NCBI GenBank assembly: GCA_025462945.1
Contig: JAOAPO010000206.1
Span: 1-32,633, forward strand
Length of the DNA: 32,633 nucleotides
Source: Bryobacterales bacterium
Lineage (GTDB): Bacteria; Acidobacteriota; Terriglobia; Bryobacterales; Bryobacteraceae
Direction of reading: 5' to 3'
In this document: piece by piece, positions 10,578-23,920 of the stretch
How positions within the stretch are numbered: position 1 is the first letter of the stretch
How the letters are laid out: every line of letters begins with the position of its first letter
Notes under the pieces: model-generated
Told to the model about the DNA's origin: nothing
Database searches by the model: none
The model's input: only the letters and a program-made list of their open reading frames with translations
Made by a program: the position numbers and the translations under genes

Positions 10578-10582
10578 GCAAA

Positions 10583-10610
10583 AAAGGCCAGACCCGAAGG
10601 TCTGACCTTT
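10583..10610 (-). terminator. Bidirectional hairpin terminator with UUCG loop
   Basis: A 12-position stem (10583-10594 with 10599-10610) encloses a four-base loop. On the minus strand the loop is UUCG closed by C-G and the single mismatch becomes a G-U pair. A run of six U follows, so it is a strong terminator for the T2SS operon ending at 10645. On the plus strand the loop is CGAA and only UUU follows, giving a weaker terminator for the convergent beta-propeller gene. Confidence 0.85.
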
Positions 10611-10644
10611 ACCCAACCGGATTTCATTTACCCGGCCTTAGCCG

Positions 10645-13080
10645 CTACTGCTGCTTTTCCGGCTGCGGGGGCGGCGCAGTCAAGTGGGTGGGCGCCCGCT
10701 CCGGCACTGATTTGTCGATCAGTTTGCGCATGTTGTGAAGTTTCTCCTTCAGATCCTGCGTGGCTTCAGCGACATGGTTTGTGTCGTAGATGACGTGCGG
10801 TGTGAGGAAGATGATCAGTTCGGTGCGCTTCTTCGTATTCGATTTTGTGCCGAACAGAACACCCAGGTACGGGATGCGGTCCAAAAGCGGAACACCGGCG
10901 GAAGTCTCGGTGCTCGATTCATTGATGATGCCACCAATCGCGATTGTGTCCCCGTCCTGGACCGTCACCTGGGTGCTCACGTTGCGCTGTGAGAACGAAG
11001 GTGAATTGATGGTCGTGCCGGTGGGGTTTGGCTCCGGTGCCGTTACGTTTTGGTTGATCACCATCGTGACGATTCCGCTGTTGTTGACCCGTGCCAGGAT
11101 ATTGAGTCCGATGCCGGTGCTGGTGTTCGAGATCGTTTGCGTGAACAGAGAGTTGCCGCCCGTCGTAACGCCGGGGTTCACGGCCTGCGATGTGAGCGTC
11201 GGGACCGAATCGCCCACCGTGATCGAGGCCGGGATGCTGTCCGTGGCGATGATACTGGGCGCTGACAGCACCTTGGCTTTGGTGCGGGTCTCCTGAGCCT
11301 GAAGAAGTGCCAGCAACTGTCGGCTTTGGCCGACCAGCAGTCCGGCGGAAAGCCCGATACCGGCTTGCGAGAACTGCCCGAGCAACTGCCGCCCGGAAAC
11401 GCCCGGGACCGTCCCGCCTTTTTGCTGCAGGAATGCCGTCACGCCCGCTTCGAAGCCTCCGGAAAGGTCGACCTCATAGATTTTCGCGTCGATCAGAACC
11501 TGGCGCGGCGAGACATCCAGCTGGTCGAGCAGGGTCTTGATCTGATCCCAGGTTTCAGGTGTACTTTGCACCAGCAGCGTGTTGTCGAACGGGTTGGGGA
11601 TGATGCGGGGCATCGCTGAGCCGAATTGACCCTGGCTGGAACCGCTCAAATACGAGCCGGTCTGGTCGGCAGAAGCCGCAGCGGGAGCCGCCCCCGGAGT
11701 TGCACCAGCCGCCGGCGGGGTTGAGCCTGCCGTGAATGGTCCCATTGACGGACCCGGTGTGGCCATTGGGTAACCGCCACCGCCACCACCGCCATAGCAA
11801 TTGTTCCCGCCATAGCCGCCGCCTCCGCCGTATCCTCCACCGCCGCCATATCCACCGCCGTAGCCTCCACCGCCACCATTTCCCCCACCGTAGCCGCCGC
11901 CGCCCCCATACGGAGACCCGTAGTTTTGGCCGCCACCGTACCCGCCGCCGCCCTGCTGGAAGCCACCACCGGCGGGCACGCCACCGAAGCTGCCATTGCC
12001 ACCCGCATAGCCTTGCGCCGGGTAACTGGAGTTGCCGGACATGCCGTAGCCGCCGCCAAAGCCGCTGTTGCCGCAGCCGCCATAAAGCTGCGTGACCACA
12101 TTGCCCAGAATCTCGGCCCGCCCGTACTTCAGACGATAGACGTTATTCTGCAGCGAGCCCGCGGTTACTTTGGGCGAGATGTCGAGCTTTCCGAGCCACT
12201 GTTCCACGTCCGCGAACGCCCCCGGGTTCGGAGCCACCGCGAGGATCGTGTTGATGCGGTCGATGGGCAAAAACTGAACAGCGCTGGCACCTTTGGCCCC
12301 GGAAAGCGAGTAGGCCTTGAAGACCTGATCGAGTTCTTTAGCCACATCGGTCGGTCGGCCGTTTCTAATCTCAAAGGCGCGTACGCGCTGCCCCGCGAGC
12401 GTCTCACTGTCAAACAGCGCAATCAATTCGAGCGTGCGCTTCATGTTGCGGCTGTTGTCCAGAATGATCAACAGATTTGCCGGATCATAGCTGGTCAACT
12501 GACCGCCGTCGCCGGTGAACGGCGCGAGTACTTTTGACATCTCAGCGGACGTGGCGTAGCGGAGAAAGACAAGATTCAGGATCAGGCGCTCATCGTCGTT
12601 CAGCCTGGCAGGATCGGTCTGAGTGACCGGGCTGATAGGCTGACGCGCGATGTTCCCGATCGGCACGATACGGAAGATGTTGCCGGCCTGCACCATCGCC
12701 AGATTATTCATCCGCAGAATGGTCTCGAACAGGGGGCGAAGGTCGACGTCGCGCACCGTTCCGAAGGTGTTCACCGTGACGCTCCCGCCCTTGACGGTCG
12801 CGTCGAGGACGTAGTTGATCTTTAGCTCGCGGGCGAGTGTATCGATGACTTCAAGCAGCGAAGCATTATTGAGGTTGAAACCGCCGACCGGATTGCCTGG
12901 GGCTGCGGCGGCCGTCTGCGCCGGGGCCGTTTGGGCCGGAGCCGTTTGCGCTGGAGCGGGCTGTCCCGGAGCGGGCTGTACCGGTGGTGGCGGCGTCTGT
13001 GCCCACGCCGAGCCCAGCAGCATTGCGCCGCAGAGAGCGATGGGTCGAGCGGTAAATCGTGCTTCGCTGAATCTTGTCAT
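10645..13080 (-). CDS. gspD: Type II secretion secretin GspD with Gly-rich insertion
   Basis: GspD forms the outer-membrane channel of the T2SS. The 811-residue precursor has a signal peptide (cleavage near AWA-Q at about 27), a Pro/Gln/Ala linker (29-62), then N0 (about 67-140), N1 (165-225) and N2 (232-303). An N3 domain starts at about 312 and is interrupted after residue 332 by a Gly/Tyr-rich insertion, resuming at about 490 (RIIPNPFDNTLLVQSTPETW). The secretin domain (about 530-765) carries VPLLDRIPYLGVLF at 730-743. Two cysteines, C336 and C428, bracket the glycine tract. A charged Pro-rich tail ends the protein and could be a pilotin-binding segment. It is the last gene of the operon; the start ATG at 13080 has a CGGAG site. 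No GspS pilotin gene is adjacent. Confidence 0.95.
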   Translation of the reverse strand: MTRFSEARFTARPIALCGAMLLGSAWAQTPPPPVQPAPGQPAPAQTAPAQTAPAQTAAAAPGNPVGGFNLNNASLLEVIDTLARELKINYVLDATVKGGSVTVNTFGTVRDVDLRPLFETILRMNNLAMVQAGNIFRIVPIGNIARQPISPVTQTDPARLNDDERLILNLVFLRYATSAEMSKVLAPFTGDGGQLTSYDPANLLIILDNSRNMKRTLELIALFDSETLAGQRVRAFEIRNGRPTDVAKELDQVFKAYSLSGAKGASAVQFLPIDRINTILAVAPNPGAFADVEQWLGKLDISPKVTAGSLQNNVYRLKYGRAEILGNVVTQLYGGCGNSGFGGGYGMSGNSSYPAQGYAGGNGSFGGVPAGGGFQQGGGGYGGGQNYGSPYGGGGGYGGGNGGGGGYGGGYGGGGGYGGGGGYGGNNCYGGGGGGGYPMATPGPSMGPFTAGSTPPAAGATPGAAPAAASADQTGSYLSGSSQGQFGSAMPRIIPNPFDNTLLVQSTPETWDQIKTLLDQLDVSPRQVLIDAKIYEVDLSGGFEAGVTAFLQQKGGTVPGVSGRQLLGQFSQAGIGLSAGLLVGQSRQLLALLQAQETRTKAKVLSAPSIIATDSIPASITVGDSVPTLTSQAVNPGVTTGGNSLFTQTISNTSTGIGLNILARVNNSGIVTMVINQNVTAPEPNPTGTTINSPSFSQRNVSTQVTVQDGDTIAIGGIINESSTETSAGVPLLDRIPYLGVLFGTKSNTKKRTELIIFLTPHVIYDTNHVAEATQDLKEKLHNMRKLIDKSVPERAPTHLTAPPPQPEKQQ
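11770..12084 (-). repeat. Gly/Tyr-rich low-complexity repeat inside gspD
   Basis: Degenerate tandem GGN/TAC triplets encode residues 333-437 of the secretin, mostly units like GGGGGYGGG. The tract is more than 60 percent glycine and also holds Tyr, Asn and Ser, with cysteines near each end. As simple-sequence DNA it is likely to vary in copy number between strains. Antisense frames through it give spurious His/Arg-rich open frames. Confidence 0.85.
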
Positions 13081-13089
13081 GAAACTCCG

Positions 13090-13518
13090 TTATTCCGGCT
13101 TCGCGGTCTGGGCTGCCAGAATGGCTCGCTCTTCGTCGGTCAGGTCCGCTTTGTTCTTCTCCCACTTGGTGGGGCCGAACGGAGACTGCCGCTCGAACTT
13201 CACTTTGTCGCCGACTTCAACGGCTTTCACGAACTGGCCGACGGGCGCGCTGGCGAAGGCCGATGGCTGGCCCGCGGTATCTTCTACTTTTGAAATCCCG
13301 AAAGGCGTTTTCGCGAACGTCCACTTCTTGCCCGCTTTGTCCGACCAGGCGTAGGTGCCGTCCGGGTTCGGGGTCGCGTCAGGCGGAATGACCAGCGGCT
13401 TCACGACGTTTGTCGCCGGCTTGGCCGGAGCCTTCGTGGCGGTCTTCTTTTTCGCTGACGTGCTCTGGCTGAACGCCGGGACGGCAAGGATCATCGCGAG
13501 CGTTATAAGGGTCTTCAT
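13090..13518 (-). CDS. Small exported protein of unknown function in the T2SS operon
   Basis: The 142-residue product has a signal peptide (MKTLITLAMILAVPAFSQS), a Lys/Ala/Pro-rich linker (about 20-45) and a compact region with DGTYAWSDKAGKKWTFAKTPFGISKVED. This is a short beta-rich module containing a TPFG turn. The C-terminal part (DLTDEERAILAAQTAKPE) is charged and helical. I do not recognise a named family. The start ATG at 13518 is preceded by GGAG with good spacing; the frame is open to 13545, but that overlaps gspC and adds no signal. It sits between the gspC-like gene and gspD (9-base gap), where a pilotin, assembly factor or GspN-like subunit could be expected. That role is only positional inference. 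Confidence 0.72.
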   Translation of the reverse strand: MKTLITLAMILAVPAFSQSTSAKKKTATKAPAKPATNVVKPLVIPPDATPNPDGTYAWSDKAGKKWTFAKTPFGISKVEDTAGQPSAFASAPVGQFVKAVEVGDKVKFERQSPFGPTKWEKNKADLTDEERAILAAQTAKPE

Positions 13519-13532
13519 CGTGTTTCTCCTGC

Positions 13533-14258
13533 TTACTTGACCCACCGGCAGGTGGCGCCGAAGGGGCTATAGGTGATGGTCTTGCGGAAGCCGTCGATGA
13601 CGGTTCCCGCGGGCGAGTTCTCGCCGGGACGGCAGGCGTGAACACCGGGGGTCAACTCGATCCCCACGTCTTTGCTGGTCGCCGGCCCGGACGGCTGAGG
13701 GGGCGCCGGGGCTGCTGCCGCAGCGGCGGGTGCCGCGGGTCCCTGATTATTCTGCGTCGGCGCATTTGAGCGGTCAACCAGTTCGTCGATACGTCGCTTC
13801 ACTTCCTTACCATTCCAGTCGAAGGCGACATTCTGCGTATCGAGCGCGAGCACTTTGAATTCGCCGATGGTATCGCCGGTCCGAATCGAACGGCTTTGCT
13901 GCCCGGGCTTTTCCGCCATGATGGCCCGTGCCCCGCTGGGCAGTCCCATAACACCGTAGACCACAGGCAACGGAGGCATCGGTTTCGGAGGGTCAACTTT
14001 CACCGGCTCGATGACGACGGTCGGATTCCGGTCGCTCGAAAACAGGTTCTTCTCGGCGACCTGCGCGTACTGAGCGGGCGTTGGAGCTTCAGGCTTCGGG
14101 GCCGGTGCGACGGGAGCCACGGTAACCGGCTTCACGCGCACATGCAGCGTCTTCTCGCGCTGTATAGCGGCCGCCGTCCAGCGGACGTTCAGTTGCCACA
14201 CAGTGGCGCCGATACCTGCGGCCAGCAGGACGTTCAGGGCTATCAGCTTCGTTGTCAA
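13533..14258 (-). CDS. gspC: GspC-like T2SS inner-membrane clamp protein
   Basis: GspC links the inner-membrane platform (GspL/GspM) to the secretin. The 241-residue protein has one N-terminal membrane span (about 5-22), a Pro/Ala-rich periplasmic linker and a homology-region (HR) domain at about 65-160. Cues for the HR domain are QVAEKNLFSSDRNP, a YGVMGLPSGARAIM strand pair and a GDTIGEFKVLALDTQNVAFDW segment. An Ala/Pro/Gln-rich linker follows, then a 48-residue tail with two cysteines (C209, C237) and a DGFRKTITYSPFG motif. There is no recognisable PDZ domain, although many GspC proteins have one. The start is a TTG at 14258 that overlaps the gspM stop as TTGA. The HR domain could equally be called PilP-like; operon position favours GspC. 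Confidence 0.75.
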   Translation of the reverse strand: MTTKLIALNVLLAAGIGATVWQLNVRWTAAAIQREKTLHVRVKPVTVAPVAPAPKPEAPTPAQYAQVAEKNLFSSDRNPTVVIEPVKVDPPKPMPPLPVVYGVMGLPSGARAIMAEKPGQQSRSIRTGDTIGEFKVLALDTQNVAFDWNGKEVKRRIDELVDRSNAPTQNNQGPAAPAAAAAAPAPPQPSGPATSKDVGIELTPGVHACRPGENSPAGTVIDGFRKTITYSPFGATCRWVK

Positions 14259-14842
14259 AACGCGGCAAACCCCTTTTTCTCAGGGATGAGCTTCTTCAGC
14301 GTGACACCGGCCAGCACCATTCGCACGGACATCATCTTCAGCTTCGCGTTGGTGGTGGTGATGCGCTCTTCGGAGGGCACAATCAGCTCACTCTGTTTCG
14401 AAAGGTCGGCAAGAAAGTTCACCAGTTGTTCCACCCGGCACTCGAAAGTCACAGTGGTGTAGACCAGACCGTATTCGCCCATGGGCTTGGGTGCGCCGAA
14501 GTCGCCGCCCCGAACATCGATGTCTTCACTCTTGCCCACGCGCCTCGCAATTTCCAGAAGCAGGGCTTGTGCCTGCGGGGCTGTGTCCGCCTGCAGAATC
14601 CCGCGCTCACGCTCGGCCAGGTCGAGGCGAACCTGCTTCGCTGCCGCAGTTCGTGCCGGAGTGGTAGCGATGATCTGGCGCATGCGGGCGACGCGCTGCT
14701 CCGCCAGAGCGATGTTGCCGGCTTCTGAACCGCCGGACGGAGCTGCGGACCCATCTGGCAATCCGAACCGCATAACCAACGCGATCAGCAGGGCTGGCGC
14801 AACGAGGAAGACGAGACGGCGCTCGCGGGCGGAGATGCTCAA
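14255..14842 (-). CDS. gspM: GspM/PilO-like T2SS inner-membrane protein
   Basis: GspM is a bitopic inner-membrane partner of GspL in the T2SS assembly platform. The 195-residue product has one N-terminal membrane span (about 9-26), a helical coiled segment (about 40-85) and a C-terminal ferredoxin-like domain. That domain includes VYTTVTFECRVEQLVNFLADLSKQSELIVPSEERI, the pattern of GspM and PilO. The start is a TTG at 14842 overlapping the gspL stop (TTGA), and its own stop overlaps the gspC-like start in the same way. Sequence conservation in this family is low, so the name depends on fold pattern, size and gene order L-M-C. Confidence 0.82.
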   Translation of the reverse strand: MSISARERRLVFLVAPALLIALVMRFGLPDGSAAPSGGSEAGNIALAEQRVARMRQIIATTPARTAAAKQVRLDLAERERGILQADTAPQAQALLLEIARRVGKSEDIDVRGGDFGAPKPMGEYGLVYTTVTFECRVEQLVNFLADLSKQSELIVPSEERITTTNAKLKMMSVRMVLAGVTLKKLIPEKKGFAAF

Positions 14843-16188
14843 GGCGTGGTCCTTCCCGCGCGATTGCGGCGCATGGTTTTGATCCGGAACTGCTCCATTT
14901 GAGAGTTACGCGTTACCGACAGCGCGAACTCGGAGTTCTGAAACAGGGGCGAGGAGTCGAGCAGCTTCAACAGCGGGCCCGCCTGGTCCGCCTCTCCCGC
15001 GATCACCACGGAGTCCGTGAAGATTTCAACGGAGTTCGTCCACACCTGGGCTGGCAGCAGCTTCGTCAGTTCCGCGAGCACGTCCAGATCAGCCTGCGGT
15101 CTGCGCCGAATCTGATCCAGCATGTCCACCCGGGCTCGAGTCGCTGTGATCGCCTGTTCCAGTGACTGCGCCTGCTTCGCTGACGGCTCCAGCCGCCGGA
15201 CTTCCTCATTCAGGGCGGCCAGATAGTTACGACGTTCCACTGCGGGGTAGATCACGAACGCGCCCAGCAGCCCGATGGCCAGCAGGGCACCCAGCACTGC
15301 TGTCACCGCGTACTGGCGGCGTGCATTGGTCGCCCTGCGTTCTTTCGGAAGGAAGTTGGCGACCCTGGTGGTGAAAGGCGCGGATGCTGTCAGTGCCGTG
15401 GCCCACGCCAGCGGCGAGTAGTTCATGACCGTGATTGGAGAAGGTGCCGGCAGAGCATCGTCGAGACTGAGCGGCTGTGAATCGGCAGAAAGCCGCAACT
15501 CGGCGCGGGCCGCAGCTGCAACCCGTTCCGGAGATGCCGCCAGTTCGGCCGAATAGACCGCACGGGCGTCACTCTCGCCATAGACCTCAATGCGACCGCT
15601 GCTGCTGGTGAAACAGAGAAGAAAGGAAGCGGGCGCCGCACTCCAGATGCGTATTGCCGCATAGATGGCCGCCGAGGAGAAGGTGACTGCGGCCACTGGT
15701 ACGCCCGCTTCCGCAAAAAGCGTCTCCCAATAATCGAGGGACGCTCTGCGAACTATTCCGATGAGGACAGTATCAGGACGGGCCCGCAGCCACGACCAGG
15801 CCACTTCCTCATCGCCGTAAGGATGAAGTGTTTCGAGTTGAAGCTCCATCGCCGCCGGGATTTCCTTATCGGCAACGCCGGGCAACAGCACCGTCCGGAC
15901 GATGACCTCTTCGCGCGGGAGGGTGATGGTCGCAGCCAAATGGGGTTCGCCCACTGACGCCAGGAACTGCAGGAGTTCCGCGCCCCATTCAGCGGCAGCC
16001 CGGGTGCGGAAATCCCGTATCGTGACCGCCGCTTTCAGCTGCGGACTCGCGCTGCGTGAGCGCGCGACGGCGACGTCCAGCTGATCGCCGTTGACCGCGA
16101 CGCCGAGGCCCGTACCGAAGATCAGCCAGCTGGACACGCCTCGTTGCGTCCGGCCCGGCGACGCGACCACCGTTTCAGACGCGGTCAT
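14839..16188 (-). CDS. gspL: GspL/PilM-PilN-like T2SS inner-membrane protein
   Basis: GspL couples the cytoplasmic ATPase GspE to the periplasmic platform. The 449-residue protein has an actin-like cytoplasmic domain (about 20-275; FGTGLGVAVNGDQLDVAVARS, TITLPREEVIVRTVLLP, AAMELQLETLHPYG) of the GspL/PilM type. It then has a single membrane span at about 293-314, a coiled coil (about 318-365) and a PilN/GspL-like periplasmic domain (LDVLAELTKLLPAQVWTNSVEIFTDSVVIAGEA). It therefore matches the usual fused PilM+PilN layout of GspL. The ATG at 16188 lies inside the end of gspK (14-base overlap), and its TGA overlaps the gspM TTG start. Confidence 0.88.
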   Translation of the reverse strand: MTASETVVASPGRTQRGVSSWLIFGTGLGVAVNGDQLDVAVARSRSASPQLKAAVTIRDFRTRAAAEWGAELLQFLASVGEPHLAATITLPREEVIVRTVLLPGVADKEIPAAMELQLETLHPYGDEEVAWSWLRARPDTVLIGIVRRASLDYWETLFAEAGVPVAAVTFSSAAIYAAIRIWSAAPASFLLCFTSSSGRIEVYGESDARAVYSAELAASPERVAAAARAELRLSADSQPLSLDDALPAPSPITVMNYSPLAWATALTASAPFTTRVANFLPKERRATNARRQYAVTAVLGALLAIGLLGAFVIYPAVERRNYLAALNEEVRRLEPSAKQAQSLEQAITATRARVDMLDQIRRRPQADLDVLAELTKLLPAQVWTNSVEIFTDSVVIAGEADQAGPLLKLLDSSPLFQNSEFALSVTRNSQMEQFRIKTMRRNRAGRTTP

Positions 16189-17125
16189 ACCACCTCACGA
16201 CTTCAAAGCCAGGCGCTTTGCCGAAGCGATTGCCAGGAAGCCAGTACTTCACGAGCGCTGCTACGGAACGCCGCAGATCCGACAGGCGGCCATCCGCGAG
16301 CCGCATCCGCGCGGTGGCGCGCAACGTCAGCATGCTTCCGCCGAAGATTCCAAGGCGTCCGCCGACCGGCCCCAGCGACTTCTGCAACTCGGCCAGCTCT
16401 CTGTAGTCGGTGATCTCATGCTGCGCTCGGCTGCTCACCAGCGTCGTCGCATCTTCCGGAGACATCCCGATTGCGACCAAAGTCTCGCGCTTCGCAAAGT
16501 TCACGTCGATACTGCCACCCAGGCTGTTGGCCGAGATGCAGTCACGCAGCCCCGCCTTCGAACCATCGAGCGATGTTCCGTAGTAAAGATCGGGTGTGAT
16601 TCCGTGTACCAGCAATAATTCCTCGGTCTCTCTGAATGACGTATGTGCCGGCAGGAAAGACGGGACGCGCGTTAAATAGTACCCGTCAAAAAGGCCGGGG
16701 CGCTGCGGAGATACAGGCGTGCGCCAGTCCACGATGGCTGCAGCGGTCTCGGAAGCCCGGTCTTCCGGCTCGCCGAGTGCGATCAGCAGGCGCAACAACT
16801 CTTCGGGCGGTGAGTTGTTCAGACCCAGACGCGAGGTCTCCGGAATCATCTCGACCCTGACCTGGCCCGACGGAAAGGTGAAGTCGAAGGCTGTCATGCC
16901 GGGCTTGTAGTAGTCGCCACCCCACTGTCGATACAACAGCGCGCGATCAATGCCGCCCCGCGCCAGCAACACGGCTTTCACGTCTTCAACGTTGGTTCCG
17001 GCCCGCTCGGTCTCACCCCGGACGTTGTGCGCCACCGCCACACCGATTGCCGCCAGTGCCGCCGTCAGCCACAGCACGGTCAACAGTGCCGAACCACGCT
17101 GTGCGCTCTTAGTAGCCATCGGCAT
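16175..17125 (-). CDS. gspK: T2SS minor pseudopilin GspK
   Basis: GspK is the tip minor pseudopilin that with GspI and GspJ starts pseudopilus assembly. The 316-residue protein has a type-IV-prepilin-like N-terminus (KSAQRG followed by SALLTVLWLTAALAAIGVAVA). Cleavage is expected after Gly11 if the ATG at 17125 is used, or Gly9 from the ATG at 17119. Like known GspK proteins it lacks the Glu at +5. The large globular part shows GLNNSPPEELLRLLIALG and SIDVNFAKRETLVAIGMSPEDATTLV, helix-hairpin-helix-like segments typical of GspK. Its length, about twice that of other pseudopilins, is also typical. It overlaps gspJ by 17 bases and gspL by 14. Confidence 0.9.
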   Translation of the reverse strand: MPMATKSAQRGSALLTVLWLTAALAAIGVAVAHNVRGETERAGTNVEDVKAVLLARGGIDRALLYRQWGGDYYKPGMTAFDFTFPSGQVRVEMIPETSRLGLNNSPPEELLRLLIALGEPEDRASETAAAIVDWRTPVSPQRPGLFDGYYLTRVPSFLPAHTSFRETEELLLVHGITPDLYYGTSLDGSKAGLRDCISANSLGGSIDVNFAKRETLVAIGMSPEDATTLVSSRAQHEITDYRELAELQKSLGPVGGRLGIFGGSMLTLRATARMRLADGRLSDLRRSVAALVKYWLPGNRFGKAPGFEVVRWYDRV

Positions 17126-17849
17126 AAAGCCCCACCAAATCCCGGTTGATGTGAACCGGCACCGTCACGGTCGTCACGTGCACCTCAGACAGCGTCTTCT
17201 CGAGAGGCGCCATCTCGATCCGAACACCCAGCGGCATGATGTCACTCCGGATCCAGTCAGAACGCCACACGCGGAAAGGAGGCTCAGGCCGCGGCTCCAG
17301 ATATGAAAAGCGGCAATACGCCAGCCGGTCAGCCAGCACGAACGACTGCGCACCAGGCAGCACGGGCATGAACAGCGTCGTCGCCAGCCCGCTCGCCGGA
17401 TTCCGCGCCACGCCGGTCACCATCAGCCCCGCCTGCGCGGCACCCGTGTATGGCGTCTCGTTCACGATCAGCCGGACGCCGATGTTTCGATCCCCCGGAA
17501 TGACTTGCATGGCCGCAATCTGCGCACGCCCGCGAAACGATTCCTGCAGGGAGTACGAAGTCACGAACCGCATCGTCTCGGCCTCGAACTGCAGGAAGGG
17601 TAGGGAATTCACAACATCCGGGGACGGCCGCCAGTCCGCGCGAGTGACGATCATACCCGCGAACTCGTTCTCGATCAACTTCGCCGAATTCGAGACACGG
17701 CGGTTCCGCACCAAATGCTGGTCGGTCTTGTCCATTGTGTTCAGCGCGATCCGCATGGCAACGAGCACGCCGACTGACAGCAAACTCAGCAGCGACACCG
17801 CGATCAATATCTCGATGAGCGTTACGCCGGCCTGTGGTTTCAGTCTCAT
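17109..17849 (-). CDS. gspJ: T2SS minor pseudopilin GspJ
   Basis: The 246-residue prepilin has the leader MRLKPQAG followed by VTLIEILIAVSLLSLLSVG. That is a class III prepilin signal cleaved after Gly8, with Glu at +5 of the mature protein. The globular domain (about 45-246) carries the larger beta-rich insert expected for GspJ, including FRVWRSDWIRSDIMPLGVRIEM close to the C-terminus, a segment like the P-x-x-V-x-I/L part of T2SJ proteins. It overlaps gspI by four bases (ATGA) and gspK by 17, so it is part of the coupled minor-pseudopilin cluster H-I-J-K. Confidence 0.87.
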   Translation of the reverse strand: MRLKPQAGVTLIEILIAVSLLSLLSVGVLVAMRIALNTMDKTDQHLVRNRRVSNSAKLIENEFAGMIVTRADWRPSPDVVNSLPFLQFEAETMRFVTSYSLQESFRGRAQIAAMQVIPGDRNIGVRLIVNETPYTGAAQAGLMVTGVARNPASGLATTLFMPVLPGAQSFVLADRLAYCRFSYLEPRPEPPFRVWRSDWIRSDIMPLGVRIEMAPLEKTLSEVHVTTVTVPVHINRDLVGLYADGY

Positions 17850-18262
17850 TGCTGCACGGGGATGCGCGCCTGTCGGTAGCCTTCAACGCGAAGAGTCCGG
17901 CGATTGCCACCCGCCGGCTTCCACCAAACCTCCAGCGCTACCTCCTGAAGGATTTCAGAGCCGGGGCCCGACTCCGGACGCACTTCAAACGGCTTTGTAG
18001 CCGCGCGCCAGCCAGCTACTGCACCGCCCGCCGTATCGGCATCGAAGGACCCTTCCACGGTACCCGTGAACGGAAGCGACACGTCCAGCAGCAATTCGTT
18101 CATCTTGTTCCGCGCCAGCATTGCAGCCCGGTCATGCTCGGCCAGCCTCGCGGCATTCCGCACCGACTGCGACAACCCCACCAGCAGCGTCGTCACCGCA
18201 ATGCCCATGATCAGGGTTGCGACCAGCACTTCCAGAAGGCTGAACCCGGCGCGACGGCTCAC
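17846..18262 (-). CDS. gspI: T2SS minor pseudopilin GspI
   Basis: The 138-residue prepilin has a very short leader (MSRRAG) then FSLLEVLVATLIMGIAVTTLL, cleaved after Gly6, with Glu at +5. A helix continues (NAARLAEHDRAAMLARNKMNELL), as in GspI, where an Ala-x-x-x-A-x-N-K/Q motif is common. The globular region ends with LRVEGYRQARIPVQQ, a plausible final strand. The start is a GTG at 18262 that overlaps the gspH stop (GTGA). Order and size support GspI rather than GspH or GspJ. Confidence 0.85.
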   Translation of the reverse strand: MSRRAGFSLLEVLVATLIMGIAVTTLLVGLSQSVRNAARLAEHDRAAMLARNKMNELLLDVSLPFTGTVEGSFDADTAGGAVAGWRAATKPFEVRPESGPGSEILQEVALEVWWKPAGGNRRTLRVEGYRQARIPVQQ

Positions 18263-18717
18263 GGCTTCACCTCGACACGTTCGATCTTCGGCACCGCCGT
18301 TACCGGATCAATTCGAATCCGCCGTCGCGCACCCTTCTCGTTCTTCAGCACGAGGTCGATCAAGGGGAAAGCTCCGCCCGGATACACCACATACCGCCGA
18401 GCGGTCTCGCCCTCGATGGTGATCCCCGGCGGCAGATCCAGTTCCGCAGCCGGCTTCGTTCCCGACGCCGCAGTAAAGACCGCAACGCGATTCAACGCGG
18501 GCTCCACTACAATCGCAGCCGCCTGTTCCCGACGTTCCACCCGATTCAGAGCGCTCGTGAAGAAACTTGCCGCATCGCCAGCGGAGGAACTCAGCCGCAC
18601 CCCTGCCAGTCCCGAGACCAGCGATGGAAACGACACGCTCGCAATGGCGGCGATGATCGAGACCACGATCATCATCTCGAGGAGGGTAACCCCTCGTCTA
18701 CTTCCAGCTGGCAACAT
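18259..18717 (-). CDS. gspH: T2SS minor pseudopilin GspH
   Basis: The 152-residue prepilin has leader MLPAGSRRG and hydrophobic helix VTLLEMMIVVSIIAAIASVSFP, cleaved after Gly9, with Glu at +5. A GspH/FimT-like segment follows (SSSAGDAASFFTSALNRVERREQAAAIVV), in which an A-x-x-R helix leads into the first strand. The beta-rich globular part ends with IRIDPVTAVPKIERV. It overlaps gspG by 20 bases and gspI by four. It is probably a minor pseudopilin of the tip complex. Confidence 0.85.
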   Translation of the reverse strand: MLPAGSRRGVTLLEMMIVVSIIAAIASVSFPSLVSGLAGVRLSSSAGDAASFFTSALNRVERREQAAAIVVEPALNRVAVFTAASGTKPAAELDLPPGITIEGETARRYVVYPGGAFPLIDLVLKNEKGARRRIRIDPVTAVPKIERVEVKP

Positions 18718-19135
18718 CAGCGTTCAGGTCGGTCCCGCCCGGCTGCCCATCCGCGCCGTAGCTGATGATGTCCGGCTCATCGCCGTGGTCGCCCGGATAC
18801 TTGTAGACGTAAGCATGCCCCCACGGATCGTTCCCCAGGTCCTTCACCAGATACGGACCATGCCACTGATCGACGCCGGCTGGTTGCAGCCGCAGCGCAG
18901 GCAACCCGAGTTCCTGCGTTGGAAAAATGCCGGTGTCGAGCTTGTACTGACCCAGCGCGAGCTGGATATCCGAGATCTGCTGCTTCGCCGCCACCACGCG
19001 AGCCTGATCGCCCCGATGCAGTAAACGCGGTCCCACGATCGCCGCAAACAAGGCAATGATCGTGACCACCACCAGCATCTCAATCAGCGTGACGCCCGCC
19101 CGTCGATTCCTTCTCCGGTTGTCTCTTTGTTTCAA
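18698..19135 (-). CDS. gspG: T2SS major pseudopilin GspG
   Basis: GspG builds the pseudopilus shaft. From the TTG at 19135 the product has 145 residues: leader MKQRDNRRRNRRAG, cleavage after Gly14, then VTLIEMLVVVTIIALFAAIVGP with Glu at +5. The GspG globular signature is clear: AAKQQISDIQLALGQYKLDTGIFPTQELGL, then HGPYLVKDLGNDPWGHAYVYKYPGDHG, then DIISYGADGQPGGTDLNADVASW, the calcium-binding loop region. The TTG is preferred because AGGAG (19143-19147) sits seven bases upstream. An ATG at 19159 would overlap gspF and give an unusually long leader. The single GspG gene of the operon fits the major-subunit role. Confidence 0.93.
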   Translation of the reverse strand: MKQRDNRRRNRRAGVTLIEMLVVVTIIALFAAIVGPRLLHRGDQARVVAAKQQISDIQLALGQYKLDTGIFPTQELGLPALRLQPAGVDQWHGPYLVKDLGNDPWGHAYVYKYPGDHGDEPDIISYGADGQPGGTDLNADVASWK

Positions 19136-19142
19136 GCCAGAT

Positions 19143-19147
19143 CTCCT
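19143..19147 (-). promoter_or_regulatory. Ribosome binding site deciding the gspG start
   Basis: AGGAG on the minus strand, seven bases before the TTG at 19135. It overlaps the TAG stop of gspF (19146-19148). It favours the TTG over the upstream ATG at 19159, which has no such site. Confidence 0.65.
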
Positions 19148-20357
19148 AAATTGCGACATCGTTGATACTCGTGATCGCGATCAACATACTTAACACCAGA
19201 GCGCCCACGATGATTCCCATCACGAGGATCACCAGCGGCTCGAACACTGAGGTAAAACGCCGGATCGCAACGCGCGTCTCTTCCTCGCAAATATCGGCCA
19301 GACGCGTGAACATCGCATCGAGCTTGCCGGTCTCTTCACCCACCGTCAGCAAGTGCGCCGTCAGTGGCGGGAACATTTTCGTCCGGCCTAACGGTCCGGA
19401 AATCCCTTCGCCGCGCTTGACGCCTCGCGCGACTTCCGTCAACGAGTTGGCCATACGCGAGTTTGACAAAATGCCCGCTGAAATCTGCAGCGCCTGCACC
19501 AGCGGCACCGTGCTTGCCACCAGCGTGCCCATCGCCCGAGCGAATCGCGCCGTCTCCGCCTTCCGCAGCGCATCGCCCAGAATCGGAATCTTCAGCCGCG
19601 TGCCATCCCACCACAAACGGCCCTCCGCCGTCTGCGTGTACGTCCTGAATGCCACGGCAGAACCCACGATCGCAAGCCCGACCACCCAGCCCCAGTTCTG
19701 CACGATCTTGCTGGCTTCCAGCATGATCAGCGTCGGCACCGGGATCTTCATCCGCCCGTCGTCGAAGACGCTGGCGAACCGCGGCACTACGAAATCCAGC
19801 AGAACGAAGATAGACCCGGCACCCACGAACGCCAGCAGTCCAGGGTAGATCAGCGACGAGATGATGTAGCCGCGCAGCTCGTCCCGAGACCGCTCGAACC
19901 CCGACAGTCGCTCGAAAATCTGGCCCAGGCTGCCCGAAGCCTCACCCGCCCGAACCATGTTCACGAACAGATCAGAAAAATAAGTCGGATGCCCGGCCAG
20001 CGCATCTGCCAGCGACTTGCCGCCCTTGATCGCGCGCAGTATGTCGGACACAATGGCACGGAACGAAGGCTTTGTCGTTAACTCGGTCGCGATCCCCAGG
20101 GCGCGATCCAGCGGCACTCCGGAATTCAGCAGCGTCGACAGCTCCTGCGTAAAGAACAGAACGTCCTTCCGCGACGAGTTGAACTCCGGCATCTTGAACT
20201 GAAAGCCGGACTTCTTCCCCTCACCCACATAAACCGGAGTCAGCCCCTGCCGCCGCAACTCACGCGCAGCCAGTGTCGTCGTCTCGGCTGCCAGAGTCCC
20301 CGTGCGGACCTTGCCATCGGAAGCAACCGCGCGGTAGTGGAACGTCGTGGACGCCAT
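19146..20357 (-). CDS. gspF: T2SS inner-membrane platform protein GspF
   Basis: GspF is the polytopic platform protein that contacts GspE and the pseudopilins. The 403-residue product shows the family layout: an N-terminal domain (FHYRAVASDGKVRTGTLAAET, ARELRRQGLTPVYV), then two copies of the T2SSF domain at about 70-190 and 270-395. Each has the LSTLLNSGVPLDRAL or MGTLVASTVPLVQALQ opening and a GEASGSLGQIFERL or GEETGKLDAMFTRLA motif. Membrane spans lie near 165-190, 220-240 and 370-395. Length is normal. The ATG at 20357 follows the gspE stop by four bases. Confidence 0.95.
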   Translation of the reverse strand: MASTTFHYRAVASDGKVRTGTLAAETTTLAARELRRQGLTPVYVGEGKKSGFQFKMPEFNSSRKDVLFFTQELSTLLNSGVPLDRALGIATELTTKPSFRAIVSDILRAIKGGKSLADALAGHPTYFSDLFVNMVRAGEASGSLGQIFERLSGFERSRDELRGYIISSLIYPGLLAFVGAGSIFVLLDFVVPRFASVFDDGRMKIPVPTLIMLEASKIVQNWGWVVGLAIVGSAVAFRTYTQTAEGRLWWDGTRLKIPILGDALRKAETARFARAMGTLVASTVPLVQALQISAGILSNSRMANSLTEVARGVKRGEGISGPLGRTKMFPPLTAHLLTVGEETGKLDAMFTRLADICEEETRVAIRRFTSVFEPLVILVMGIIVGALVLSMLIAITSINDVAI

Positions 20358-20361
20358 CAGC

Positions 20362-22008
20362 CTAGAATTCCTGCGTCACGCGAGTCACTTCAGAGGCCGT
20401 CGTCCCGCCGCTGCTGACCTTGGCCCAGCCGTCTTCCCGAAGATTCCGCATACCATTGCGCCGCGCTGCTTCCGTCAGACGCGAGGCATCCGCGCCCGCC
20501 ATGACCAGGTGGCGCAGTTCGTCGTTCATCTCCATCAGTTCGAAGATGCCCGCGCGCCCGCGATACCCCGACCCGCTGCATTCCTCGCAACCGCGACCCC
20601 GGTAAGTCTCGATCTCTTCGCCGAACGGAGTCAATGAGCGCCCCGCCACCTCTTTGCAATTCGCGCAGATAAGCCGCACCAGGCGCTGCGCCAGCACCGC
20701 CACCACAGACGACGAAATCAGGTAATTCTCCACGCCCATGTCTGTCAGCCGCGTCACGGCACTCGGCGCGTCATTGGTATGCAGTGTGGAGTAAACGAAG
20801 TGCCCTGTCAGCGCTGAGCGAATCGCAATATCCGCGGTTTCACGATCACGAATTTCGCCGATCATAATGACGTCCGGATCCTGCCGAACGATATGCCGGA
20901 TCCCGGCCGCGAACGTCAGCCCAATGGCCGGATTCACGTGGATTTGGTTGATCCCGTCCATCTGGTACTCCACTGGATCCTCAATCGTGATGATCTTCTT
21001 GTCCGGCAGGTTGATGAGCTTCAGCGCCGAGTACAGCGTAGTCGATTTGCCGCTGCCGGTCGGCCCGGTGACCATGAAGATCCCGTGGGGCAGGGAAGTG
21101 TAGTACTCCATCCGCCGCAGCATGAAGTCGTCGAAACCAAGCCGCTTCAGGTCGTAGAAATCGCCGGCCGAGCGATCTAAGATACGCATGACAACGCTCT
21201 CACCGAAAAGTGTCGGCAGCGTGGAAACACGAAGGTCCACCTCGCGGCCCAGAATCCTCAGCTTGATACGACCGTCCTGCGGCAGCCTGCGTTCCGCGAT
21301 GTTCAGCTTCGCCATCAGCTTGAGGCGCGAGATGATCGCCGCCTTGAATTCGCGCGGTGGCGGGTCCTGATTGAAGAGCACGCCGTCCACTCGGAAGCGA
21401 ACACGAAACTCTTTATCGAAGGGCTCAATATGGATATCCGACGCACGCTTTTCCACGGCCTGCGCGATCATCGCATTCACCAGCCGAATGACGGGCGCTT
21501 CGCTCGCCATGTCGCGAAGATGTTCCAGATCATCTTCATCGACGGCATCGAAACCAGCCGTCGCCGACCGCGCGCCGCCATCGGCATAGTAGCGGTCGAT
21601 CGCGTCCAGAATCTCTTGCTCCGTAGCCAGCTGCGGAACCACTTCCAGCTTCGAAAATGCCCGAATTGCACTGATCGTTTCGAAGTCGAGCGGATCGGCC
21701 ATCGCGACCAGCAGCGACCCGTCTTCCACGGCCAGTGGAAACACCAGCGACTGCCTCAGGAAACGCGTGGACATGCCTTCTGTCTCCGGGCCGGCATGAG
21801 GTGCCGCGATACGCGCGATGCTCAACCCGAGCTGATCAGACAGCGCGCCGATCAGATCGCGCTGGGCGAGGTACCCCATATCGACAAGGATTTTTCCGAC
21901 CTTGTCGCCGCGCTCCCGCTGCAGCTCCAGGGCACGTTCCAGATCCTCGGGCCCAATCAGCCCTCGCTCGATCAGCAGCTGTCCCAGAGGGGTTGCGGAT
22001 GCGGTCAA
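20362..22008 (-). CDS. gspE: T2SS assembly ATPase GspE
   Basis: GspE is the cytoplasmic hexameric ATPase that powers pseudopilus extension. The 548-residue protein has an N1E-type domain (about 5-75 and on to 145; GQLLIERGLIGPEDLERALELQ) and a catalytic domain from about 170. Visible motifs: Walker A GPTGSGKST with Lys321, Asp box ITIEDPVEYQ (341-350), Walker B IMIGEIRDRETAD with Glu385, and His box GHFVYSTLHTNDAP. The GspE zinc motif is complete: C448, C451, C474, C477. The start is a TTG at 22008, one base after the stop of the preceding gene. It could in principle be a PilB-type ATPase, but gene order settles GspE. Confidence 0.95.
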   Translation of the reverse strand: MTASATPLGQLLIERGLIGPEDLERALELQRERGDKVGKILVDMGYLAQRDLIGALSDQLGLSIARIAAPHAGPETEGMSTRFLRQSLVFPLAVEDGSLLVAMADPLDFETISAIRAFSKLEVVPQLATEQEILDAIDRYYADGGARSATAGFDAVDEDDLEHLRDMASEAPVIRLVNAMIAQAVEKRASDIHIEPFDKEFRVRFRVDGVLFNQDPPPREFKAAIISRLKLMAKLNIAERRLPQDGRIKLRILGREVDLRVSTLPTLFGESVVMRILDRSAGDFYDLKRLGFDDFMLRRMEYYTSLPHGIFMVTGPTGSGKSTTLYSALKLINLPDKKIITIEDPVEYQMDGINQIHVNPAIGLTFAAGIRHIVRQDPDVIMIGEIRDRETADIAIRSALTGHFVYSTLHTNDAPSAVTRLTDMGVENYLISSSVVAVLAQRLVRLICANCKEVAGRSLTPFGEEIETYRGRGCEECSGSGYRGRAGIFELMEMNDELRHLVMAGADASRLTEAARRNGMRNLREDGWAKVSSGGTTASEVTRVTQEF

Positions 22009-22009
22009 G

Positions 22010-22549
22010 CTAGAGTTCCTGCTCGTCGAAGAGCTTCGCGAACTCCGTGCCGCTGAGCTTCTTCGCTGCCGCGTCCAGCAACTGCTGCTTTGATGCGGTC
22101 ATCACGATCCGCCTGGGCAAATCCCGCGAATTTTCCCATTTGTAGTTGAACAGGAACGCTTCCATCACGATGCGCTCATTGGCCGGGAGACCGGTCAGCG
22201 TCTTGCTCGCCCCCAGCATCAGGCTGCGCATCTCGGCCTTCAGTGTCTCCACCTTACGCGTTTTGCGATCGTGCATCGCGGCGACTTCGCCGTCGGCAAG
22301 CGCCGGCTTGAACGGCGACAGGTTCAACGGAGAAACCAGCACCAGATTCATCTCCACGCTGAACACCGCGCCATAGCCGTCCAGATACGTGCCCCGCGCA
22401 GTCCCCAAAAGATCGTATGGATCGTTCACGCCCGAACGGAACTTGTCATTGATTGAGGCCTCCACGGCCCGCAGCGAAGCCAGTGAAACCGGCGACTCCA
22501 CAGCCGCAAAACAGACGCTCGCCAGTACGGCCAGCAGTACGGGCTTCAT
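22010..22549 (-). CDS. Exported protein of unknown function between anti-sigma factor and gspE
   Basis: The 179-residue product has an N-terminal signal (MKPVLLAVLASVCFAAVES), then a mixed alpha/beta region with TARGTYLDGYGAVFSVEMNLVLVSPLNLSPFKP and a long charged helix (DRKTRKVETLKAEMRSLMLGASKTL). It ends in a helical tail (KQQLLDAAAKKLSGTEFAKLFDEQEL). I recognise no named family. It overlaps the anti-sigma gene by four bases (ATGA) and precedes gspE by one base, so it is made with both. A periplasmic role linking envelope sensing to the secretion machine is a guess from position. The longer open frame up to 22927 is a shadow of the anti-sigma gene. Confidence 0.75.
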   Translation of the reverse strand: MKPVLLAVLASVCFAAVESPVSLASLRAVEASINDKFRSGVNDPYDLLGTARGTYLDGYGAVFSVEMNLVLVSPLNLSPFKPALADGEVAAMHDRKTRKVETLKAEMRSLMLGASKTLTGLPANERIVMEAFLFNYKWENSRDLPRRIVMTASKQQLLDAAAKKLSGTEFAKLFDEQEL

Positions 22550-23148
22550 TGTCCCGACCCCACTGATGGCGCTTCCAGAGACGCCAGCGATGTATAGGCG
22601 CCCATGCGCTTCTGCATCACCTCCACTGTCTCCTGCATCGTCACGAGCAAGGCCTGGTGTTCGCGCTGGTGCTTTGTCTCGGCTGCGGCCAGTGCCACGG
22701 ACGCCTGCCGCGCATCTTCCTGATGCACCTGAACCACGGCCTTCTTTACCGCGGCGTCGATCTGCTGCGAAACATCCACCGGAGCGGCGGTCGAAGAGGC
22801 TACCACGGTTCGCACTTCTACAGGGCGCTTCACCGCCGAGAACACAATCGCCCCGGCCAGCAAACAGGCCGCCGCAAAGCCAGCCTGTGTCCGCGAGGCG
22901 AAGAAGCCCCTGAAGAACCGGCCCCATGGCGACGGGTCAAACAGCTTGTCCGATACGAACGCAATACGTTGCGGAATCTCGCGATCCGGCACCGAGCGCA
23001 GCGCCGCTGTCGTCAGTTGAATGGAATGCAGTTCCGCTGCACATTCCAAACAGCTCTCCACATGCCCTTCCATCGCCACTCGATCCGCTCCCGCAAGCTC
23101 GTCGAAGGCATAATCCCGGAGCGCCTCGCTCCGCGCACAACTGTTCAT
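22546..23148 (-). CDS. Membrane anti-sigma factor with zinc-finger-type N-terminus
   Basis: The 200-residue protein has an N-terminal anti-sigma (zf-HC2/ZAS-like) domain: C4, then H29, C33 and C36 in HVESCLECAAEL, a ligand set like the H-x3-C-x2-C of zinc-binding anti-sigma factors. One membrane span follows at about 88-105. The periplasmic part is an unusually long predicted coiled coil (about 125-185) ending without a known sensor domain. It overlaps the ECF sigma gene by four bases (ATGA), the classic cognate pair arrangement, so it probably holds that sigma factor inactive at the membrane. Downstream it overlaps the unknown exported protein gene, also as ATGA. The signal sensed is unknown. 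Confidence 0.87.
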   Translation of the reverse strand: MNSCARSEALRDYAFDELAGADRVAMEGHVESCLECAAELHSIQLTTAALRSVPDREIPQRIAFVSDKLFDPSPWGRFFRGFFASRTQAGFAAACLLAGAIVFSAVKRPVEVRTVVASSTAAPVDVSQQIDAAVKKAVVQVHQEDARQASVALAAAETKHQREHQALLVTMQETVEVMQKRMGAYTSLASLEAPSVGSGQ

Positions 23149-23690
23149 CGCATCCCCCTGTTGGAAACCGGTTCCAGTTCCGCTTTCATCAAATCCAGCG
23201 CAGTATAAAGCCGCGACTTGATCGTCGAAACCGGACAGCCGAGAATCTCCGCCATCTCGTCGAACTTGAAGCCCTCATGAACCTTCAGCACAACCGCCTC
23301 CCGCTGCTCCGCCGAAAGCTTGTCCATTGCGGCATTCACCGCGATCGACACCTCCGGAGAGACACCGTGAGCCGGTTCCCGCTCCGCAGCCTCGGCATCG
23401 CCCGAGGTATCGGGCTGCCGCTTGCGGAACATGGAATAGGCCTCGTTATGCGCGATACGGAACAGCCACGGTCCAAACCGTGACGTGTCATCCAGCTTCC
23501 GTATGTTTTGATAGGCCTTCAAGAAAACGTCCTGGCTAAGATCGAGCGAATCCTCCGACCGGCCGGTCAAACGCAGAAGGTAATTAAAGACGCGCTTCTC
23601 CCAACGCGATACGAGGTGGTTGAACGCCTCTACATCGCCTTTTCTTGCGCCAGTAATCAGGTCCGCATCTTCCACGGCCCGAAGGATCAA
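23145..23690 (-). CDS. ECF RNA polymerase sigma factor heading the T2SS operon
   Basis: The 181-residue protein contains sigma region 2 (about residues 25-90; WEKRVFNYLLRLTGRSEDSLDLSQDVFLKAY, then WLFRIAHNEAYSMFRKR) and sigma region 4 (about 118-172; LSAEQREAVVLKVHEGFKFDEMAEILGCPVSTIKSRLYTALDLMK). Both are complete, as in ordinary ECF factors of the RpoE/SigW type. The TTG at 23690 is chosen because GGAG lies seven bases upstream (23698-23701). A GTG at 23675 is an alternative start. It is the first gene of the operon, followed by its likely anti-sigma factor and then the secretion genes. ECF factors usually activate their own promoter, so autoregulation of the T2SS operon is plausible but not shown. 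Confidence 0.92.
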   Translation of the reverse strand: MILRAVEDADLITGARKGDVEAFNHLVSRWEKRVFNYLLRLTGRSEDSLDLSQDVFLKAYQNIRKLDDTSRFGPWLFRIAHNEAYSMFRKRQPDTSGDAEAAEREPAHGVSPEVSIAVNAAMDKLSAEQREAVVLKVHEGFKFDEMAEILGCPVSTIKSRLYTALDLMKAELEPVSNRGMR

Positions 23691-23920
23691 ATTCAGTCTC
23701 CAGTTCTAAAGACGCCGACCTGTCCGAAAAAGTCGGATGGACCTGTAAAGCGGGGGAATGGCTGCGTCACAGGTTCCATGTTGCCATAGGGACTGCCCCG
23801 AAGTGGTGCAACAGACTCTCTGCCCGTTAGTGCTGAAATCGACACTTGCCCGTCTTTTCTCTCCTTGAAATGGAAAGAGGTTGCCTTATACTGTGGCCAT
23901 TACAGTTTGAGAGGGGCTGT
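23691..23920. other. Divergent promoter region between sigma/T2SS operon and Oar-like receptor
   Basis: This 230-base gene-free interval separates the two start points. It contains a small inverted repeat (CCGAC and GTCGG around 23715-23740) and two copies of GACCTGT about 26 bases apart. These could be operator sites for the minus-strand operon. I could not pick a convincing ECF-type promoter for the sigma gene. The plus-strand promoter is listed separately. Confidence 0.4.
23865..23892 (+). promoter_or_regulatory. Sigma-70-type promoter for the Oar-like receptor gene
   Basis: TTGAAA (23865-23870) and TATACT (23887-23892) are separated by 16 bases, each one or two mismatches from consensus. 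Transcription would start near 23899. That leaves a short leader of about 20 bases with a GAGAGGGG ribosome site just before the ATG at 23921. Confidence 0.6.

Follow-up and report, generated by a model that had tools for sequence, protein, structure and literature searches.

A sigma, anti-sigma and X gene trio with a conserved promoter at the head of a type II secretion gene run in Acidobacteriota

Gene content and conservation of the locus

The window analysed here is a contig of 32,633 nucleotides (nt) from a Bryobacterales bacterium (JAOAPO010000206.1, one of the 640 contigs of a 6.54 Mb genome, assembly GCA_025462945.1). Its minus strand carries 15 open reading frames (ORFs) arranged head to tail from position 23690 to 10645 (Table 1). 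The run opens with the genes of an extracytoplasmic function (ECF) sigma factor (sig), a membrane anti-sigma factor (asf) and an exported protein that we call X, and continues with gspE-F-G-H-I-J-K-L-M-C, a further gene that we call Y, and gspD, which amounts to eleven genes of a type II secretion system (T2SS). Comparisons of gene order and of promoter motifs support the view that this sigma system belongs with the T2SS.

The original prediction, made by eye on this stretch, had placed an ECF sigma factor, a membrane anti-sigma factor and an exported protein directly before gspE, and the ORFs and domain matches bear this out. It had also described the genes as coupled by overlaps of four bases or gaps under about 15; this is mostly right (distances from sig to gspD of -4, -4, +1, +4, -14, -20, -4, -4, -17, -14, -4, -4, -13 and +9), save that five overlaps are longer (13-20), overlap lengths depending on the ORF starts used. 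GspE, F, G, K, L, M and C and the secretin GspD occur together, as in a T2SS: gspE, F, G, K and D are solid, H, I and J are recognised solely by prepilin motif and position, and gspC and gspM are family matches under the curated cut-offs, with gspE just under its own.

Conservation of this arrangement was assessed in 396 genomes of the phylum, in 150 genomes of the family, and in a second public collection that overlaps with them in genomes. Within the family, a single match to sig (E<=1e-40) was present in each of 132 of the 150 genomes, and the order sig-asf-X-gspE was found in all 40 loci fetched from these 132. Among the 45 sigma relatives that share 44% identity or more in the public collection, which include Bryobacteraceae, Solibacteraceae, and Candidatus Solibacter and Candidatus Sulfopaludibacter metagenome-assembled genomes, asf-X came next in 43 and gspE in 42, the rest lying at contig ends; gspE was downstream in none of 35 more distant ECF loci. 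Chance neighbourhood was rejected on the counts for the family loci and the near sigma relatives.

Across the phylum, a search with X gave matches in 26 of the 396 genomes, with gspE next to X downstream in every one and sig before X in 24 (in the other two, G282 and G211, the contig ends first). Taking as T2SS genomes the 47 of 396 with a gspE match at E<=1e-150, 23 were already among the X matches, whereas three X genomes (G298, G242 and G211) fell under this threshold and outside the 47; the other 24 loci were added and profiles were then applied. By this count, asf-X precedes gspE in 34 of the 47, and sig is seen in 33 of them, G282 being cut by the contig end. The gene-order comparison suggested by the original prediction thus finds the trio conserved before gspE across many families rather than adjoining it by chance, and the accompanying statement that T2SS operons are usually not headed by an ECF gene fails in Acidobacteriota. 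The divergence of sig, asf and X is also correlated with that of GspE (Mantel rho 0.59, 0.72 and 0.84, with permutation maxima of 0.36-0.37; 32 loci, 999 permutations, distance correlations in place of trees). A second ECF gene lies beyond gspD in six loci of other families (L049, L051, L056, L060, L062 and L063).

Table 1. Features of the sig-gspD gene run and its candidate promoters in the window.
Feature	Position	Strand	Description
P1 promoter	23708..23738	-	-35 CGACTTTTT (23735-23727), -10 GCGTCTT (23715-23709)
sig	23145..23690	-	ECF sigma factor, 181 aa, TTG start; Pfam PF04542/PF08281
asf	22546..23148	-	membrane anti-sigma factor, 200 aa; weak zf-HC2, HxxxCxxC, one transmembrane helix
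X	22010..22549	-	exported alpha/beta protein, 179 aa; no family; between asf and gspE in relatives
gspE	20362..22008	-	ATPase with MshEN N-terminal domain; T2SSE E 4e-141; TIGR02533 620 bits, cut-off 630
gspF	19146..20357	-	T2SSF E 4e-54
gspG	18698..19159	-	major pseudopilin; TIGR01710 133 bits, over cut-off
gspH position	18259..18717	-	minor pseudopilin; prepilin motif and position
gspI position	17846..18262	-	minor pseudopilin; prepilin motif and position
gspJ position	17109..17849	-	minor pseudopilin; prepilin motif and position
gspK	16175..17125	-	T2SSK_1st E 2e-10
P2 candidate intragenic promoter	16635..16665	-	GTCTTT 16661-16656, ACGTCA 16642-16637, inside gspK
gspL	14839..16188	-	PilN domain E 9e-9
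gspM	14255..14842	-	NF040576 51 bits, cut-off 60
gspC	13533..14258	-	NF041515 30.7 bits, cut-off 150; position
Y	13090..13545	-	exported protein without family, between gspC and gspD; 45% identity over 131 aa to an ORF of locus L251
gspD	10645..13080	-	secretin; TIGR02517 381 bits, over cut-off

A scan of the 3' end of the operon (10450-10750) for a sigma-70-type promoter or a terminator found none. The N-terminal MshEN-type domain of GspE is above cut-off and, going by the family name, binds cyclic di-GMP in relatives; in GspD, a long glycine-rich stretch is inserted between two of the N domains. A divergent gene for a TonB-type outer-membrane protein (23846-27292) shares a 155-bp intergenic region with sig.

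Promoter motifs in front of sig, inside gspK and at other genes

The original prediction had expected an autoregulatory promoter that could not be spotted by eye. Such an element is present as P1 (CGACTTTTT-N11-GCGTCTT), 18 nt ahead of the TTG start of sig, and it is kept in the family: its boxes (GACTTT and GCGTCT-like) occur upstream of sig in 42 of 43 loci, at a distance of 13 in 41 and of 14 in one, L127 being the sole locus that does not match. A position weight matrix built from the 41 sites gave P1 the best score in the window (34.7, the next best being 11.3), and P1 tops the 30 candidates scored in its own genome. In the public collection, 41 of the 45 sigma loci score above 17 (L265 has a box distance of 14, and L272 comes without upstream DNA), while the promoter score upstream of the 35 distant ECF genes is 8.6 at most.

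Other classes carry a variant, TTAGACTTTY and GCRTC at the same distance, with a strict match in 16 of 33 loci. In nine more, a class-wide matrix, which was built from these 16 sites and then also scores them, gives a value above 12 close to sig; two of the nine are at doubtful distances (L052 and L061) and three are congeners (L056, L060 and L063). The remaining eight loci have none. Searched exactly over the 396 genomes, TAGACTTTY-N12-GCRTCH gave 35 sites in 32 genomes, 12 of them before a T2SS-linked sig, and no such site was found before gspE in the 12 T2SS loci that have no trio beside gspE. Because the motif is linked to this sigma gene and recurs at the genes described below, we infer that this sigma factor, and not another ECF, would recognise it.

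A second copy of the motif, P2, lies inside gspK. It was examined in 22 gspK genes (18 from 20 fetched regions, two of which held no gspK, together with those of the window, L040, L041 and L156), and in all 22 the P2 place scores 11.3-31.8, higher than any background window in that gene. The site encodes a conserved peptide, P-S/T-F-x4-A-S, in which TCT or ACT encodes the Ser/Thr residue (with GCT in one case, where it is Ala), TCT making up 5% of the Ser codons elsewhere in these genes. When the 317 codon columns are ranked by bias, the P2 Ser/Thr column comes first and the second Ser column second. The mean score of 24.8 compares with 1.2 for synonymous recodings (standard deviation of the mean 1.5, highest 5.8). 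Codon choice at P2 is thus constrained as it would be for a DNA signal. The exact motif was verified inside gspK in three genomes (G535, G425 and G500); four more exact sites lie 6.8-7.3 kb downstream of sig on the same strand, and a further site, in G526, is identical over its 25 bases to one of them. In other classes, further starts within the operon are hinted at by a site 11 nt before gspC (L079) and by sites about equally deep in L057 and L062. To our knowledge, it is unusual for an ECF promoter to be preserved within a coding sequence of its own operon.

In its exact form, the family motif was counted 87 times across the 150 genomes, with 50 occurrences within 150 bp of sig and 37 elsewhere; 30 of the latter were inspected, as were 8 of the 23 phylum sites beyond the 12 mentioned above. 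In three genomes of two genera (G431, G502 and G525, the last two congeners), the motif lies 24-43 nt ahead of the ATG of a gspF-G-H group. G431 lacks gspF directly behind gspE, and so does G463, which belongs to the genus of G502 and G525. G417 has a site between gspC and Y, 22 nt before Y; a displaced Y was ruled out there, as gspM, gspC, the site, Y and gspD form one row, making this an internal site. The feedback through autoregulation that had originally been proposed would fit this pattern, in which the promoter of sig recurs at split-off T2SS genes and within the operon.

The motif also precedes the gene of an exported protein, V, in eight genomes of six genera. V (L173:2494-2988 and homologs) is found in 132 of the 150 family genomes and has no significant Pfam match, one member being weakly like DUF4136 (E 0.21). 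Eight of 30 V loci outscore each of the 672 background windows; V had first been noticed through three of the eight, and without these the figure is 5 of 27 (three genera, with three of the five in one genus). Among the other sites, that of G439 is a sig promoter on a broken contig, and the remaining 16 of the 37 are varied, two lying in one coding gene of congeners. The genes of a PpiC-type isomerase and of a possible outer-membrane barrel each have one site in front, and one more lies 208 nt ahead of a different ECF gene. In other classes, the motif stands before SLT lytic transglycosylase genes in three trio genomes (G226, G282 and G242). One-mismatch sites in the genus of the window were, apart from the gspK site of L156, checked for neighbouring homologs of window genes only. 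A further sig-asf-X trio, with a promoter of its own, is present in G242 (L240, contig C285; the stretch examined ends inside X). In G227 (L215), where gspE has no match at E<=1e-150, the motif precedes an ECF-anti-sigma pair, a related system that lacks this T2SS.

The three trio proteins and their closest known counterparts

The sig product has sigma regions 2 and 4 only, as in ECF factors (Pfam region 2, E 5e-18, residues 26-92; region 4, r4_2, E 1e-12, residues 118-165), and scores 90.6 bits against TIGR02937 (cut-off 42.9). The asf product matches zf-HC2 at 19.5 bits, below the cut-off of 22.2, and has the HxxxCxxC motif, which is present in 71 of 77 asf homologs, one of the six exceptions being a cut sequence. 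Its AlphaFold model (37 sequences; mean predicted local distance difference test score (pLDDT) 83.5, predicted template modelling score (pTM) 0.37) has four N-terminal helices, as in class I anti-sigma domains (7-14, 20-32, 34-51 and 74-84), a transmembrane helix at about 87-107 and a single long predicted periplasmic helix (124-192). The relative placing of these parts is undefined because of the low pTM. Foldseek ranked RslA and RsiW at the top (probability 0.89-0.98), with ChrR at 0.25-0.84, all at E 0.36 or above. Class I domains with and without zinc are both known from published work (PMC7406223). The model suggests that asf is a class I anti-sigma factor that would hold sigma via its cytoplasmic helical domain. 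It shares this domain, with Hx3Cx2C, with anti-sigmas of the RslA, RsiW and ChrR type, and differs from them in a periplasmic part predicted as one long helix, in which Pfam finds no sensor domain of a known family.

X has no sequence relative in Pfam, NCBIfam or the PDB; a profile search of the PDB returned only ribosomal-protein matches at E 0.25 and worse, which were rejected. Its AlphaFold model (43 sequences, pLDDT 92, pTM 0.85) is an alpha/beta domain behind a hydrophobic N-terminus. Foldseek gave no match at E<=0.001, and a fold comparison (VIA) gave as best match a sex-pheromone precursor (Z 7.4, 100 aligned, root-mean-square deviation 3.2); matches to the ring-building motifs of FliF and EscJ (Z 5.0-5.9) reflect a common arrangement, and no link is claimed. 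A profile of X run against the 927 ORFs of the 35 distant ECF loci had two matches, and shuffled controls had none. In a Cyclobacteriaceae contig of the Bacteroidota (L310:5923-8700), sig and asf are followed by a 427-residue tandem protein, each half of which resembles X in part (60.6 bits to X; hhalign probability 96.8, E 2e-10), and no T2SS homologs were found within the stretch examined. The other match, in a Pseudomonadales locus (L315), is a possible anti-sigma/X-like fusion and is weak (17.6 bits, hhalign probability 20; an unrelated anti-sigma scored 0.3). Because an X-like protein follows the sigma/anti-sigma pair in the Bacteroidota contig, X is probably a periplasmic partner of the anti-sigma factor; its presence there beside the pair without a T2SS makes it more likely that X serves sigma and anti-sigma than the pilus-like machine.

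The nearest precedent is VreA-VreI-VreR (PUMA3) and Hxc of Pseudomonas aeruginosa, where an ECF sigma factor and a membrane anti-sigma factor likewise adjoin T2SS genes. There, overproduction of VreI raises hxc transcripts, as does deletion of vreR; vreAIR is a separate operon with a CSS-like receptor, VreA, that PhoB switches on when phosphate is low, and the action of VreI at its targets requires PhoB as well (PMC2729926, PMC7035377). The acidobacterial unit differs in apparently having no receptor gene among its own genes, its third gene X being without a Pfam relative, in the conserved P1 before sig itself, and in holding the T2SS in the same gene run; the TonB-type domains of the window (OMP_b-brl_4 and Plug) are in the divergent gene. 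It shares the gspE-F-G-H-I-J-K-L-M-C-D content of ordinary Gsp operons and differs from them in having sig-asf-X at the head and Y between gspC and gspD. Beyond Proteobacteria, a survey of secretion systems reports very few T2SS (PMC4793230). Full-text searches of open PubMed Central papers, and the secretion and sigma passages of the Solibacter genome paper, yielded no account of the acidobacterial arrangement; the 2021 ECF reclassification may hold the group. An ECF sigma factor acting on a T2SS is already known from VreI and Hxc, and because of this, and in view of the lack of a description in these sources, we take the acidobacterial arrangement to be a variant.

A proposed regulatory circuit and its alternatives

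We consider it very probable, on the comparative sequence evidence, that the locus is a self-contained unit in which a dedicated, self-amplifying ECF sigma factor would transcribe the T2SS while being held by a class I anti-sigma factor. At rest, the membrane anti-sigma factor would hold sigma through its cytoplasmic helical domain, as its fold suggests. A periplasmic cue may be read by the long asf helix, with X as the likely partner, and sigma would be freed; the comparative evidence speaks neither for nor against the original proposal that the anti-sigma factor responds to envelope or secretion stress. RNA polymerase carrying sigma would then start at P1, with sig, asf, X and the whole T2SS forming one transcript unit, and firing of P1 would presumably amplify the sigma factor, its brake and the machine at once. 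Most relatives would gain additional gspL-M-C-Y-D transcripts from a further start within gspK; in genomes where the genes from gspF onward have moved away, the relocated genes would respond through the same promoter, and in some lineages V or a lytic transglycosylase may have joined the regulon.

Several observations weigh against this proposal. A T2SS can do without the trio, because 12 of the 47 T2SS loci have none beside gspE (six of one genus, G037, G085, G113, G122, G180 and G306, the last judged on 0.9 kb of upstream DNA only; four of family f15; two of f68). The X profile (E<=0.01) is absent elsewhere in these genomes, save in G113, which carries sig, asf and X on a different contig from gspE (L357), and one more genome, G013, has a divergent sig-asf pair without X. 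Other ECF genes also lie near such machines: five of the 35 distant ones, each paired with an anti-sigma gene (L313, L321, L325 and L335, from Acidobacteria, Blastocatellia or Pyrinomonadaceae, and L330, from Pyrinomonadaceae) follow secretin- or pilin-like genes, two with a GspE-family ATPase. These five loci have another gene arrangement and perhaps represent a second ECF tied to a pilus-like machine. In the genome of the window, only P1 is strong, and relaxed matches number 31 against 36 for the reversed control; V was not found there at E<=1e-6, the SLT gene in the window has no good site (best 4.3), and P2 is the weakest copy of its set (11.3, recoding p 0.03, against 16.8-31.8 in relatives). 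The V and gspF recurrences include congeners. The 37 family sites away from sig compare with 52 reversed-pattern hits, and the 23 further phylum sites with 26, both controls being summed by hand; raw site counts were rejected as evidence for want of an excess over these controls, and it is for this reason that the argument is built on the motif recurring before the same genes. Many ECF promoters share a CGTC-type -10 element, and another ECF could use the site because such elements are common.

One alternative is a broad, RpoE-like envelope-stress sigma factor that stands before the T2SS by chance and controls many genes, with the T2SS as one client. The single sites before the isomerase and the possible barrel, the SLT genes with a site in other classes, the common type of the anti-sigma factor and the X-like protein that follows sigma and anti-sigma in the Bacteroidota contig would all agree with it, yet P1 alone stands out in its own genome, the targets that recur in the family are T2SS genes and V, and gspE lies behind 42 of 45 near sigma relatives and none of the 35 distant ECFs; we regard a broad stress sigma as unlikely. 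That the trio is passive cargo, a stable neighbourhood without regulatory meaning beside a T2SS driven from elsewhere, would account for the T2SS loci that have no trio and is very improbable: the overlaps from sig to gspE in the window leave no gap for another promoter, a sig-type site precedes the relocated gspF, and one is kept in gspK against codon preference. The gspK element could itself reflect conservation of the protein sequence, or be a different RNA or DNA signal, instead of a promoter, as its position in a conserved peptide and its low score in the window would allow; we judge this rather unlikely, since the constraint in 22 genes extends beyond the peptide to the codons, and both boxes and their distance match the matrix derived from sig.

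The dedicated, self-amplifying unit may also be read in a stronger form, which we advance tentatively and hold to be possible rather than probable. In this form the circuit would monitor the machine: the asf helix and X would sense T2SS assembly or traffic through the periplasm, and the state of the machine would set transcription via P1 and P2, a logic conserved across much of Acidobacteriota and resembling flagellar checkpoint control. X would then be an adaptor that ties an older sig/asf/X module, still without a T2SS in the Bacteroidota contig, to the machine.

Few studies have dealt with secretion in Acidobacteriota, which occur widely in soils. If the proposed circuit is correct, it would offer a handle on when these bacteria export enzymes, allow co-regulated genes in uncultured genomes to be located by their promoter motif, and tie two protein families without known function, X and Y, to the T2SS.

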